The notes beneath the pieces were generated by a model that worked only from the letters and a program-made list of their open reading frames with translations, searched no databases and was not told where the DNA came from. This document shows, piece after piece, positions 3,559 to 41,516 of a stretch of 43,506 nucleotides of DNA. Position numbers and translations under genes: made by a program. Source of the stretch: a virus; the IMG/VR virus record IMGVR_UViG_3300036806_000477, positions 1 through 43,506 of that record, one strand, 5' to 3'. Position 1 is the stretch's first letter, and each line of letters begins with the position of its first letter.

Positions 3559-3822
3559 GTGCACCGCTACTGGAAAAACGACCGGATCACGGCCTATGAG
3601 GCGCCGCGGCAAGCCGTGTCTCCGCGGGAGATGCGCAGCGTATCCCTGATCTTCCAGGGGCAGCCTAGGTCTGGCCGCAGCAGGTTCGCGACCGTGCGCA
3701 TTCCCAGGAACATGAAGGCGCCGGACATCATCAAATACCGCGGCCATACCTTCGTGCGTCGCACCGATGACACCTATTCGGAGGCGTCCATGTGGCCGAT
3801 CGTCGATGGACTTGATAGCTGA
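3559..3822 (+). CDS. Small neck-region protein
   Basis: 87 residues if translation starts at the GTG at 3559, five bases after the preceding stop. An ATG at 3484 in the same frame lies inside the upstream gene and gives an unrelated N-terminus. The protein is basic and beta-rich (FATVRIPRNMKAPDIIKYRGHTFVRR). It overlaps the next gene by TGATG. Function unknown; position suggests head-tail joining. Confidence 0.5.
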   Translation: MHRYWKNDRITAYEAPRQAVSPREMRSVSLIFQGQPRSGRSRFATVRIPRNMKAPDIIKYRGHTFVRRTDDTYSEASMWPIVDGLDS

Positions 3823-4043
3823 TGGGCAACAACCCGAGCTGGGCTTTGGGCTACGTCCCGAGCGCAATCGAGTGGAACAACGAATGGTCCAGTAAGGCGG
3901 ATGACTCTGGTCCACTGGCATCACTCATCGCACTCAGCCCGAGCAGCCCGAGTTACGCGAATGACACCGAAGCGGCCGCCGGCAGCGTGCAGGTTGGAGA
4001 GTTTTATCGGAATGGCAACTTCGTGATGATAAGGCTATCGTAG
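3822..4043 (+). CDS. Small fibre-like protein with a GYVPSAxxWN motif
   Basis: 73 residues. The segment GYVPSAIEWNNEWSSKADD matches the short motif seen at the base of many phage tail fibres (P-T/S-A-x-x-W-N ... K-x-D), which makes its place in the neck region unusual. The rest is Ser/Ala rich and ends in a beta segment (GEFYRNGNFVMIRLS). Coupled to the gene before it. It may be a neck fibre or whisker-like component, or a small structural protein that borrowed a fibre motif. Function not established. Confidence 0.5.
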   Translation: MGNNPSWALGYVPSAIEWNNEWSSKADDSGPLASLIALSPSSPSYANDTEAAAGSVQVGEFYRNGNFVMIRLS

Positions 4044-4067
4044 TGCCAAGCCCACCACGGCGGTAGA

Positions 4068-5132
4068 ATGCCGACACTCGATGAATTGCAAGGCGTATCC
4101 GGCAGTCTGCACGATGCGCTTGCCGCCGGCATCGCTGATATTTCGCAACAGACCACGGTAGCATTCACGACCTATCAGAAGGTCGTCCTTCCTCTGGACG
4201 GGTTCGTGTTCTGGCTTCGCATTGGCGGATTCGAGCAAGCCGGCGCCATCCACTTCATGGCCGAGCGCCAGCAGGAAGAAACCGAGACGCGGGCGCGTAA
4301 CACTGTCATTTTCACGACGCAAGAGCTTGTCCAGCCGCTAGATACCGAGAATACACAAACCATAGCGGTCGGCGAAATCGCCGGCCAACGATACGCTTTC
4401 GGGCGACATGGCTGGTATTTCCCACAGGCTGGTGTCTTCCACTACCAGGGCGACGGCGTGCCGGCGGCGATGGCGCTGCAACTGGTCGATGAGCCGTCGC
4501 AGATCCCTACTGATCCGATCGTCTCGGACAGCCTGCCGGCGTGGCTCCAGCTCGTGTCCTACGATCCGGTGTGGGTGTCTTGGCCGGTCGATCGCAACCC
4601 GCACATCACACTGTATCCGTCCTACCTGGTGCCGGACAATCTGACGCCGCCTTATGGGTCGGTGCACATCGAGGCATCGCGCATCGATGCGATGCAGTCG
4701 ATGCCGTGGCTGTCGTCGACCTATAGCCACTACCAGCTGACGCGAGAGAGCGTGCGGGTGACGCTCTACGGCTGCAACAACAACACCGCGGCCGACTTCC
4801 TGGACCTTGTCGAGCAATATACGCTCGATACCGACGCTTTCGGCATCATGAACATGCCGACGATCCGCGACGGCAAGCGGCCATGGCCCGAGGGCATGGT
4901 TATCGCCCAGCTCAAATACATCGACTTCGATGTCTCCTATGTCCAGACGCGCGTCAACGATATCGCGCGCCAGCTCATCACCGACGCCATCGCCACGGTG
5001 CTACCGGACGACCGCTCACGCACGGTTGGCGTGCTCGGCGGGACAGGGACCCTCACGGGGAATGCCGCGGTGCAGCCGGCAGGCGCGATCGGCCGGTTCG
5101 CAATCGGCATCAGCGGAATAGGCGTCGGCTAA
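4068..5132 (+). CDS. Neck/tail terminator protein (LIC_12616-like)
   Basis: 354 residues. Residues about 215-305 (RESVRVTLYG ... FGIMNMPTIRDGKRPWPEG ... VSYVQTRVNDIARQLI) resemble the neck terminator family found just before sheath genes in contractile-tail phages; such proteins close the top of the tail. The N-terminal part (residues 20-150) is a separate beta-rich region not seen in short family members, so this protein is long for the family. The last 35 residues carry a Gly-rich module (VLGGTGTLTGNAAV) like those in the tail fibres further right. The sheath gene follows after two small ORFs, as expected. Confidence 0.65.
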   Translation: MPTLDELQGVSGSLHDALAAGIADISQQTTVAFTTYQKVVLPLDGFVFWLRIGGFEQAGAIHFMAERQQEETETRARNTVIFTTQELVQPLDTENTQTIAVGEIAGQRYAFGRHGWYFPQAGVFHYQGDGVPAAMALQLVDEPSQIPTDPIVSDSLPAWLQLVSYDPVWVSWPVDRNPHITLYPSYLVPDNLTPPYGSVHIEASRIDAMQSMPWLSSTYSHYQLTRESVRVTLYGCNNNTAADFLDLVEQYTLDTDAFGIMNMPTIRDGKRPWPEGMVIAQLKYIDFDVSYVQTRVNDIARQLITDAIATVLPDDRSRTVGVLGGTGTLTGNAAVQPAGAIGRFAIGISGIGVG

Positions 5133-38983: not shown

Positions 38984-39886
38984 ATGAGCAAAACACTTTG
39001 CATCTACCACGGGAATTGCCAAGACGGCTTTGGAGCGGCTTGGGTGGTGCGCAAGCGCCTTGGCGATAGCGCCGAGTTCCACCCCGGCATCTATCAAGAT
39101 GCGCCACCGGACGTGACTGGACGCGACGTGCTGCTGGTCGATTTCAGCTACAAGCGCCCAGTTCTGGAGGAGCTGGCTAGGACAGCGCGATCGGTGCTGG
39201 TGCTCGATCACCATAAGTCGGCAGCAGAGGATTTGACTGGCTTCTTCTCGCCACCAAGCTGGGATATTTGGACCGGCATTGCCGGCACATACCCGCCGAT
39301 GAGCATGCGCCAGCGCATCACAGCGCTGTTCGACATGGAGCGATCCGGAACAGGCATCACCTGGGATTACTTCTATCCGGACGAGCCGCGCCCCAGGCTG
39401 ATTGACCACATTGAGGACCGAGACCTCTGGCGGTTCAAGCTACCCAACACACGCATGATCACCGCCGCGCTGTTATCGCATCCTTACGACTTCGACCTGT
39501 GGGACCACTACATGTCGAGCGATCTAAAGACGTTGACGCTCGAAGGCGCCGCGATCGAGCGGAAGCATCATCAGGACATCGATAATCTGTTGCCCGTGGT
39601 GCAGCGCGGGATGGTAATCGGTGGCGCGTACATGCCAGTTGCCTGCCTACCGCTGACATTGACCAGCGACGCCGGCCACAAGATGGCATCCGCCGCCAAT
39701 GGCGTGGCTGCATGCTACTGGGACACGAAAGAGGGGCGTGTATTCTCTCTGCGCTCGACCGAGAATGGACCGGATGTCTCTGCGATCGCCAAGCAGTACG
39801 GCGGCGGTGGTCATCCGCACGCTGCTGGCTTCCGTGCCCCCCTCGGCTGGGAGGGCGACGCTGCTACCGCAACGACTGAGACCTAA
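38984..39886 (+). CDS. DHH/DHHA1-family phosphoesterase
   Basis: 300 residues. DHH domain: IYHGNCQDGFGAAW with H9 and D14, LLVDFSY, and the D75-H76-H77-K motif; a metal-binding HIEDRDLW follows. The DHHA1 domain ends with GGGGHPHAAGF (G273-H277). Known members cut nano-RNAs, pAp or cyclic dinucleotides. In a phage it could recycle short RNAs or degrade a defence signal; the substrate cannot be read from the sequence. Start cassette AACCCGGAGCGGAAC upstream. Confidence 0.75.
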   Translation: MSKTLCIYHGNCQDGFGAAWVVRKRLGDSAEFHPGIYQDAPPDVTGRDVLLVDFSYKRPVLEELARTARSVLVLDHHKSAAEDLTGFFSPPSWDIWTGIAGTYPPMSMRQRITALFDMERSGTGITWDYFYPDEPRPRLIDHIEDRDLWRFKLPNTRMITAALLSHPYDFDLWDHYMSSDLKTLTLEGAAIERKHHQDIDNLLPVVQRGMVIGGAYMPVACLPLTLTSDAGHKMASAANGVAACYWDTKEGRVFSLRSTENGPDVSAIAKQYGGGGHPHAAGFRAPLGWEGDAATATTET

Positions 39887-39911
39887 CCAAACCCCAGTTG
39901 AGGATCGAAAG

Positions 39912-40694
39912 ATGAGTGGAGTAATTGAGCGGATGGCGCTTGTTGGAGTCCTTCAAGTAGGCGCACATAAAGACCACAGAGCAATGTGCGTTATGGAGGC
40001 GGTAGCATTCGTCGCCGGAGAGCCGTGGTCGGACCATCCAGAGTGTGCATGTCCAGTCGTCGGCGCTTTTCTTCGTTCCTGGAATGATGGACTGCCGGAT
40101 GAGGAACGCGATGCACTGTTGCGCCCATTGATCCTGCGTGTGGTTGGAACGCGCCGTGACGCAGAGGTTGAGCGGCGGCGAGCATTGATGGCTGCTGACT
40201 GGCTCGTGCGCGTGCATACTCCTGCATGGCTACGGCTGGCGAGGCTGGATAAGCAGGCTGACACTTTGGCGTCCCTGCCGGAGATCACCGACGTGGCGCA
40301 GTGTCCCTCGTTGAGGCCCGCGCTCGCGGCCGCGCGTGATGATGCTCACGCCGCCAGGGCCGCTGCCGGGGACGCTGCCGGGGACGCCGCCGGGGCCGCT
40401 GCCGGGGCCGCCAGGGCCGCCGCCAGGGCCGCTGCCGGGGACGCTGCCGGGGACGCCGCCGGGGCCGCCGCCGGGGCCGCCGCCGGGGCCGCCGCCGGGG
40501 TCGCTGCCTGGGCCGCTGCCGGGGTCGCTGCCTGGGCCGCTGCCGGGGCCGCCGCCGGGGCCGCCGCCGGGGTCGCTGCCTGGGCCGCTGCCGGGGTCGC
40601 TGCCGGGGACGCCGCCGGGGACGCACTAAAGGTTACCCGGTTGGATCTTCAGCAATCGGCGCTTCGGCTCGTTGATCGCATGATTGCAGCCTAA
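39912..40694 (+). CDS. Hypothetical protein with Ala-rich 4-residue repeats
   Basis: 260 residues from the ATG at 39912. The N-terminal 135 residues (MEAVAFVAGEPWSDHPECAC ... ALLRPLILRVVGTRR ... ADWLVRVHTPAWLRLARL) belong to a family seen in phages and actinobacteria, function unknown. Residues about 147-238 are A-A-G/W-x repeats encoded by a 12-base tandem repeat. A short non-repeat tail (LQQSALRLVDRMIAA) closes it. The repeats probably form one long helix. Confidence 0.6.
   Translation: MSGVIERMALVGVLQVGAHKDHRAMCVMEAVAFVAGEPWSDHPECACPVVGAFLRSWNDGLPDEERDALLRPLILRVVGTRRDAEVERRRALMAADWLVRVHTPAWLRLARLDKQADTLASLPEITDVAQCPSLRPALAAARDDAHAARAAAGDAAGDAAGAAAGAARAAARAAAGDAAGDAAGAAAGAAAGAAAGVAAWAAAGVAAWAAAGAAAGAAAGVAAWAAAGVAAGDAAGDALKVTRLDLQQSALRLVDRMIAA
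40351..40623 (+). repeat. 12-base tandem repeat, about 23 copies
   Basis: Unit GCCGCTGCCGGG and variants (GACGCTGCCGGG, GCCGCCGCCGGG, GTCGCTGCCTGG), all in frame, coding A-A-G-D/A/V or A-A-W-A. One 3-base register slip occurs after the fourth to fifth unit. Extremely GC rich; reading frames on both strands remain open, which gives shadow ORFs. Confidence 0.85.
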
Positions 40695-40715: not shown

Positions 40716-41516
40716 ATGCACACTTCCACATTTGAATATCTGAACCCGACAGACGCGCAGAAAGAGCAGATGGCGAAGGTGCGGACGGCATTTGCGTGGA
40801 GAAGACCGAGTTCTGGAATGCGAGTGCTTGATCTATTCAGTGGCATTGGTGGCTGGAGCCTTGGCCTCGAAAGGGCGGGAGGATTCAAAACTATTGCTTT
40901 CTGCGAGGTCGCTCCCTTTCAACGAGAAATATTGTCAAAGCATTGGCCTGGAGTGCCTCTCCTTGGAGATGTCGAAACCGCAGACTTCCCAGCCGCAGAT
41001 GTCATCACTGCCGGATGGCCATGTCAGGATATCTCGCTTGCCGGCTCAGGCGCCGGACTTACCGGCTCCCGTTCAGGACTCTGGTGGTCGGTGGTGCGAG
41101 CCGTTCGCTTGGTTCGACCAAGATGGGTCCTGCTGGAGAACGTGGCAGAGCTGCTTGGAAGGGGGATGGGCGGAGTGGTCGGAGCGCTGGCCTCGTGCGG
41201 CTATGACGCGGAATATGATTGCATACCGGCTCTCTCCATCGGCGCCAATCACGAACGAGACCGGGCGTGGATTGTTGCCTACGATCGGAGCATCGGACTG
41301 GCGATCGGGGAAAGGATATTCTCACGGCAGCAAATCACAGACGCCGCAGCTAAGGCATCTGGTCGATGGGATGATCTGTCCGAGGTGGGCCGAGCGGTTC
41401 ATGGGCTTCCCGATAGGGTTCACAGAATTGAGGCCATTGGGAACTCGCTCCTCCCGCAGATCCCGGAAATGATCGGGCGCAGGATCATGGCTATCGAAGC
41501 CGAAAAGAACGACTGA
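40716..41516 (+). CDS. DNA C5-cytosine methyltransferase
   Basis: 266 residues. Motif I LFSGIGG (40-46), motif IV G-W-P-C103-Q-D with the catalytic Cys, motif VI E141-N-V, motif VIII HERDRAWIVA, and motif X IEAIGNSLLPQIPE (N243). The stretch between VIII and X, where target recognition sits, is short at about 50 residues. Likely protects phage DNA from restriction. Start cassette CAACCCCGGGAGCAGAAC upstream. About 500 bases of this gene are also open and conserved in the +1 frame. Confidence 0.85.
   Translation: MHTSTFEYLNPTDAQKEQMAKVRTAFAWRRPSSGMRVLDLFSGIGGWSLGLERAGGFKTIAFCEVAPFQREILSKHWPGVPLLGDVETADFPAADVITAGWPCQDISLAGSGAGLTGSRSGLWWSVVRAVRLVRPRWVLLENVAELLGRGMGGVVGALASCGYDAEYDCIPALSIGANHERDRAWIVAYDRSIGLAIGERIFSRQQITDAAAKASGRWDDLSEVGRAVHGLPDRVHRIEAIGNSLLPQIPEMIGRRIMAIEAEKND
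40969..41472 (+). CDS. Overlapping +1-frame protein inside the methyltransferase gene
   Basis: 167 residues from the ATG at 40969 (frame open back to 40792). The sequence is protein-like: EPFAWFDQDGSCWRTWQSCL, ERWPRAAMTRNMIAYRLSPSAP, LLPTIGASDW, WAERFMGFPIGFTEL. From memory this matches a recurrent phage family that also occurs as a separate gene beside C5 methyltransferases. It could therefore be a true second product. Alternatively it may persist because the methylase frame is conserved. GGAG lies immediately before the ATG, too close for a good ribosome site. Confidence 0.4.
   Translation: MSKPQTSQPQMSSLPDGHVRISRLPAQAPDLPAPVQDSGGRWCEPFAWFDQDGSCWRTWQSCLEGGWAEWSERWPRAAMTRNMIAYRLSPSAPITNETGRGLLPTIGASDWRSGKGYSHGSKSQTPQLRHLVDGMICPRWAERFMGFPIGFTELRPLGTRSSRRSRK

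Follow-up and report, generated by a model that had tools for sequence, protein, structure and literature searches.

Does a viral C5-methyltransferase gene encode a second conserved protein in its +1 frame? The question was raised by positions 40716-41516 of the window, by which we mean the whole stretch of DNA analysed, which is in itself an entire virus record (43,506 bases). A preliminary description of this locus had reported a +1 frame open for about 680 bases, and had proposed that two constrained frames on the same strand amount to real dual coding. The two frames and their motifs, as described here, all lie on the plus strand.

The methylase frame

The frame-0 gene (40716-41516), here called alpha, encodes the 266-amino-acid catalytic subunit of a C5-cytosine methyltransferase, with motifs I-VIII, a variable linker and motif X. 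It matched Pfam family PF00145 (E = 5.9e-35), covering only positions 1-167 of 324, and the PHROGs family phrog_363 (E = 6.5e-69). The AlphaFold2 model had a pLDDT of 84.5, and its top PDB match was M.HhaI, over 169 columns.

Motif I (VLDLFSGIGG, AdoMet binding) was located at 40824-40853 from the sequence and from the conserved columns among relatives. Motif IV (PCQ, with the catalytic Cys103) followed at 41019-41027, motif VI (ENV) at 41136-41144, motif VIII (HERDR) at 41250-41264, and the motif X region (RIEAIGNSLLPQIPEMIGR) at 41424-41480. Among 90 relatives, P102 and C103 of motif IV, E141 and N142 of motif VI, R181 and R183 of motif VIII, and N243 and P247 of motif X were invariant, and Q104 nearly so. 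Motifs I, IV (PCQ), VI (ENV), VIII (RxR) and X, by which PF00145 members are recognised, are thus all present. Conventional C5-methyltransferases aligned with alpha over motifs I-VIII only (E = 5.5e-41). Neither a target-recognition domain nor motif IX was found in the alpha chain. The earlier view that the methylase frame is intact in all motifs therefore holds for I, IV, VI, VIII and X, but not for motif IX, which sits in the +1 frame.

The +1 frame

The +1 open reading frame runs from a TTG to a TGA at 40792-41472, over 226 codons or 681 bases, in agreement with the length first reported. The three segments quoted from it (CWRTWQSCL, WPRAAMTRNMIAYRL and WAERFMGFPIGFTEL) were all recovered, and reading from the ATG at 40969 gave the 167 residues expected. 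This probable product, here called beta, occupies 40969-41472; the next in-frame ATG is at 41011.

Three parts can be distinguished in beta. The N-terminal conserved block (FAWFD..SCWRTWQ..WPRAAMTRNMIAYRLSP; 41098-41232), delimited by consensus and stop counts, overprints alpha motifs VI-VIII. Strands were predicted at beta residues 45-87, and the block was modelled with a pLDDT of about 81-90. The variable region (LLPT..ASDW; 41233-41376), a putative target-recognition domain, is marked in relatives by substitutions that fall on the wobble base of beta, and is a linker in alpha. The last part is a motif IX-like block (CPRWAERFMGFPIGFTEL; 41377-41430), which is linked by profiles, via actinophage proteins, to the conventional motifs IX-X.

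Against PHROGs, the product of the +1 frame matched phrog_1008 (E = 7.5e-13) and phrog_26627 (E = 5.7e-5), and beta matched phrog_1008 with E = 3.4e-13. Searches of Pfam and NCBIfam with beta gave no meaningful family, and none of 117 beta members had a Pfam match. AlphaFold2 modelled beta alone with low confidence (pLDDT 68, pTM 0.38). This model matched no PDB structure, and in a viral structure library it matched only phage proteins of the same family. PDB sequence searches with beta profiles gave non-significant matches or none, and no RNA family of Rfam was found over the locus.

A phage methylase gene with an ORF hidden out of frame has been described before, in an element of the mycobacteriophage ShiLan that encodes an HNH homing endonuclease (PMC11855218). 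That element is a mobile insertion; it uses the third frame and carries HNH and zinc-finger motifs. Beta, in contrast, is read in the +1 frame, overlaps conserved methylase motifs instead of an insertion, and had no Pfam match in any of the 117 members. An insertion of the ShiLan type was rejected on this anatomy, and we give it practically no chance of explaining the +1 frame.

Constraint on the two frames among relatives

Since alpha is conserved, its +1 translation will also look conserved, and the main tests therefore kept the alpha protein fixed. For the stop test, only the alpha profile was used to retrieve loci, and the shuffling exchanged alpha codons between synonymous positions. The +1 frame of 79 such loci had a mean of 0.61 stops per locus, compared with 4.06 expected after shuffling; 54 of these loci had no +1 stop, and 66 were significant at p <= 0.05. 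The four control frames, i.e. the +2 frame (9.2 stops vs 8.6 expected) and the three antisense frames, showed no depletion in the same loci. None of 18 conventional C5-methyltransferases from bacterial genomes was stop-free in the +1 frame, with 13.2 stops observed and 12.5 expected. Relatives whose methylase is intact thus have few stops in the +1 frame; frequent stops there would have spoken against a second protein. Along the alignment, +1 stops were concentrated upstream, with 371 in 9383 codons at columns 21-79 and 28 in ~22,000 at columns 80-224.

Codon choice pointed in the same direction. Across ~165 loci, the choice among synonymous codons for conserved residues of alpha was close to background both in motifs I-III (mean G/n 0.08-0.14) and beyond motif X (0.12). 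Inside the overlap it was frozen, with G/n up to 1.54 in the stretch before motif X. At the most strongly frozen columns, the fixed codon was the one that yields the conserved +1 residue. For example, the glycine of GYDAEW was encoded by GGG in 153 of 161 loci (24 expected). Over motif IX, an aspartate was GAT in 72 of 72 loci, and a glycine GGG in 150 of 155 (23 expected).

The same boundaries were seen in the 4-fold synonymous difference, as calculated on conserved codons in independent pairs. Before the overlap it was 0.51 in motifs I-III, and it was 0.50 just after PCQ. Inside the overlap it was 0.29 as far as motif VIII, 0.35 across the variable region and 0.15 at IX/X, and after the overlap it was 0.55. 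Synonymous sites of the methylase are thus constrained in the overlap only, and do not evolve freely there.

Changes at alpha codon positions 1, 2 and 3 numbered 695, 546 and 1727 in motifs I-III, and 868, 534 and 1610 in motifs IV-VIII (51 independent pairs). Between motifs VIII and IX they numbered 156, 66 and 83, in the few pairs with at least 60% alpha identity there. The free position in this stretch is the first of alpha, which is the third of beta, so that the main constraint there is on the +1 frame and alpha passes through. Of the 12 pairs in which beta identity across the variable and IX region was 50% or more, 9 had beta more alike than alpha. Both frames are under constraint at once over motifs VI-VIII and again at IX/X.

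Evidence for the +1 frame was also present in the window itself, as scored with a beta profile built without the window's own sequence. The whole +1 frame scored 186 bits, whereas 1000 synonymous shuffles gave 70 on average and never more than 108. The longest opening of the frame was 242 codons, compared with a shuffle mean of 101 (P = 0.0014); the stop-free core alone gave a weaker signal (P = 0.031).

The simplest alternative is that there is no second protein, and that the +1 frame is a shadow of methylase conservation and GC-rich codon usage. About 70 of the 186 bits do outlast synonymous shuffling, as such a shadow would predict. However, stops, codon choice and codon-position rates, with alpha fixed or with matched controls, all showed constraint specific to the +1 frame. 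A shadow of alpha conservation was ruled out by the synonymous permutation, the four other frames and the 18 conventional enzymes, and we regard this alternative as extremely improbable. Dual coding, as supposed in the preliminary description, is strongly supported by stops, synonymous sites and codon-position rates: in this family, each of the two frames is conserved and subject to selection.

Probable translation of beta

Beta is probably translated from an internal start near 40969. In 154 of 160 loci, an ATG or GTG was available downstream of the last +1 stop and ahead of the conserved block, and ATG was in modest excess in this stretch (168 vs 132 expected). In the window, no Shine-Dalgarno sequence was found at a sensible spacing upstream of the ATG at 40969 or at 41011.

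Alternatively, a +1 ribosomal frameshift could produce a fusion of the alpha N-terminus with beta, with no internal start. Two of the 160 loci had no usable +1 start before the beta block (L163 and L165) and four had only weak ones, which would fit this route. Six loci with a single-indel frame swap (L021, L069, L081, L090, L182 and L223) would fit it as well. Given the start codons available in nearly all loci and the modest enrichment of ATG, we consider frameshifting improbable.

Motif partition and the probable function of beta

The actinophage forms of the family bear on what beta may be. Alpha terminates after motif VIII in phages Vash, Samy and Eesa, and the +1 protein extends across PTP repeats, the motif IX block and motif X. 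Actinomyces phage xhp1 has motifs I-VIII, the repeats, the IX block and motif X in one frame, and the beta N-terminal block in the +1 frame. Motif IX is thus followed by motif X in single-chain relatives of beta, both in the actinophage proteins and in xhp1. The C-terminal end of beta relatives reads NPxWVEWLMGFPxGWT, and the window version is CPRWAERFMGFPIGFT.

In profile comparisons, the actinophage proteins matched beta at the IX block (probability 97.8%, E = 1e-12) and conventional enzymes at IX-X (probability 81%, E = 1.2e-5). Compared directly with conventional enzymes, beta also landed on motif IX, weakly (probability 1%, E = 0.054). Because alpha lacks motif IX and the actinophage profiles link to IX-X, the most reasonable reading of beta is that it combines a recognition region with motif IX. 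By this motif content, it is most likely the target-recognition and motif IX subunit of a two-polypeptide methyltransferase, like M.EcoHK31I.

Beta could also be a real protein with another job, such as a methylase regulator, a restriction inhibitor or an unrelated DNA-binding protein. Its N-terminal block, which has no recognised fold or Pfam family, leaves room for such a role. We nevertheless consider it quite unlikely, as motif IX and a recognition domain are missing from alpha, and the motif is present in beta. In addition, the block is elsewhere joined to motif X or to motifs I-VIII in a single chain, and alpha and beta occurred together at every locus scored.

Taken as a whole, the locus very likely encodes a dual-coded, two-subunit DNA (cytosine-5) methyltransferase, with alpha as the catalytic and beta as the nested +1 recognition and motif IX subunit, and with a probable orphan anti-restriction role. 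In such an enzyme, alpha would bind AdoMet and supply the catalytic Cys103, with motifs I-VIII and X. Beta, made from its internal start, would provide base recognition and motif IX, and the two would assemble into one heterodimer that methylates phage DNA. Between motifs VIII and IX, alpha would read the DNA of beta's recognition region merely as a linker. The viral setting suggests that this methylation serves as orphan protection against host restriction.

Relation to known enzymes

A two-part methyltransferase related to that of the window has been known since 1995. The small chain of M.EcoHK31I has 176 amino acids, compared with 167 for the beta of the window; it is encoded in another frame inside the large gene, and both chains are required for activity. 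In M.EcoHK31I (YGGCCR), the large chain carries motifs I-VIII and X, and motif IX is on the small chain (PMC3404938). In motif layout, this partition is the same as in the window. The M.EcoHK31I recognition domain, however, was predicted in the large chain, whereas codon-position rates place the constraint on the variable region of the window family in the +1 frame. A further difference is that the window is a virus record, with no restriction gene identified.

In M.AquI (CYCGRG), motifs I-VIII are on one chain, and the distal recognition region and motifs IX-X are on the other (PMC3404938). Its split resembles the actinophage forms of Vash, Samy and Eesa. In the window, by contrast, motif X is still part of the catalytic chain, and the gene for the second chain lies inside that of the first.

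Parts of the family are already catalogued. PHROG 1008 ("DNA methyltransferase", 329 positions) matched 116 of 117 beta proteins, including that of the window; in the material consulted, this entry and PHROG 26627 state no mechanism and mention no overlap. In Paenibacillus phage Likha, which is distant in sequence, the depositors annotated a nested +1 gene (gp51/gp52), with both products named "DNA cytosine methyltransferase". We know of no analysis of this nesting.

Distribution and architectures

In a first pass with both profiles, 260 of 260 loci had beta in the +1 frame of alpha; they came from viruses, plasmids, bacteria and one archaeon. All these loci were found with profiles of the alpha/beta family itself, so the count shows only that these scans yielded no standalone copy. 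Viral contigs searched by the beta profile and bacterial genomes gave no standalone beta gene, every candidate overlapping an alpha frame. The family had earlier been thought to occur also as separate genes. It is indeed annotated so (PHROG 1008, Likha gp52, Samy gp50), but the overlap with the methylase was present throughout. Even in the "separate" genes of actinophages, the N-terminal part overlaps alpha in the +1 frame, as judged by profile.

The main class, with the beta N-terminal block and motif IX in the +1 frame and motif X in frame 0, comprised 238 loci. Five loci (L163, L165, L179, L264 and L271) had motif IX in frame 0 and the beta N-terminal block in the +1 frame. Variants in which one indel or stop breaks both frames together were found in phage Llama (L182) and in a prophage of E. 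coli PCP07014 (L190). In Llama-type phages, the halves are annotated as two methylase genes.

In pairs such as L106/L157 and L167/L170, motifs I-VIII were very similar, and the alignment stopped before the variable region or failed in it, which suggests a swapped recognition region. In L012 (2049-4508) and L041 (3010-6156), the +1 frame was open far past the methyltransferase, in L012 continuing into an apparent primase/helicase-like ORF. L017 had a second methyltransferase-like ORF directly 3' of the dual-coded one (about 3648-4341).

The copy in the window and its neighbourhood

The 167-residue beta of the window scored 185 bits, ranking 19th from the bottom of 103. It carries G78A, G83M and P106I, at three sites where 92-98% of relatives have Gly, Gly and Pro, and alpha carries W167Y. 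With three near-invariant beta residues lost, the activity of this copy is less certain than that of the family. The substitutions in both chains could mean that the beta of the window is decaying and its methyltransferase inactive in an otherwise dual-coded family. Both frames are open, however, beta still reaches the score given above, and 46 of the 50 near-invariant positions of alpha are intact; we find decay unlikely.

Two further features were observed upstream. A GC-rich tandem array of a 12-base unit, with about 23 copies at 40349-40624, is situated close to the 3' end of ORF 39699-40694, upstream of the methyltransferase gene, and encodes an Ala/Gly/Asp repeat tract. Differences in its length could make it phase- or size-variable. 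A DHH phosphoesterase gene (38984-39886; phrog_4771, E = 4.4e-103) lies two genes upstream of the methyltransferase.

Significance

The kind of enzyme described here is already known from M.EcoHK31I, its nesting has been annotated in Likha, and beta is listed in PHROGs. Apart from the split enzymes, a literature search on the overlap found nothing; no description of its scale, of the evidence at codon level, of the +1-coded recognition region or of the architecture series was found in the literature searched. To our knowledge, prokaryotes have few long same-strand overlaps in which conservation of both frames extends over great distances, and such cases are difficult to prove. In the present case, a stretch of about 420 bases codes for two conserved proteins, and does so in hundreds of genomes that are unrelated. 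As the codon-level effects are large and both frames are conserved, the locus can be used as a reference for overlap detection, and for studies of how overlaps originate and are resolved.

The +1 constraint on the recognition region revisits the older placing of this domain in the large chain of M.EcoHK31I. Databases usually name one chain only, and such enzymes may therefore be cloned without a part needed for activity. On balance, we favour the view that these loci represent a class of cytosine methyltransferases that is very widespread in phages and prokaryotes, with the DNA-specificity module in the +1 frame of the catalytic gene. In this class, specificity would diversify while the other frame serves as a passive linker, and the nested, half-split and single-frame forms would be a natural series of an overlap being made or undone.
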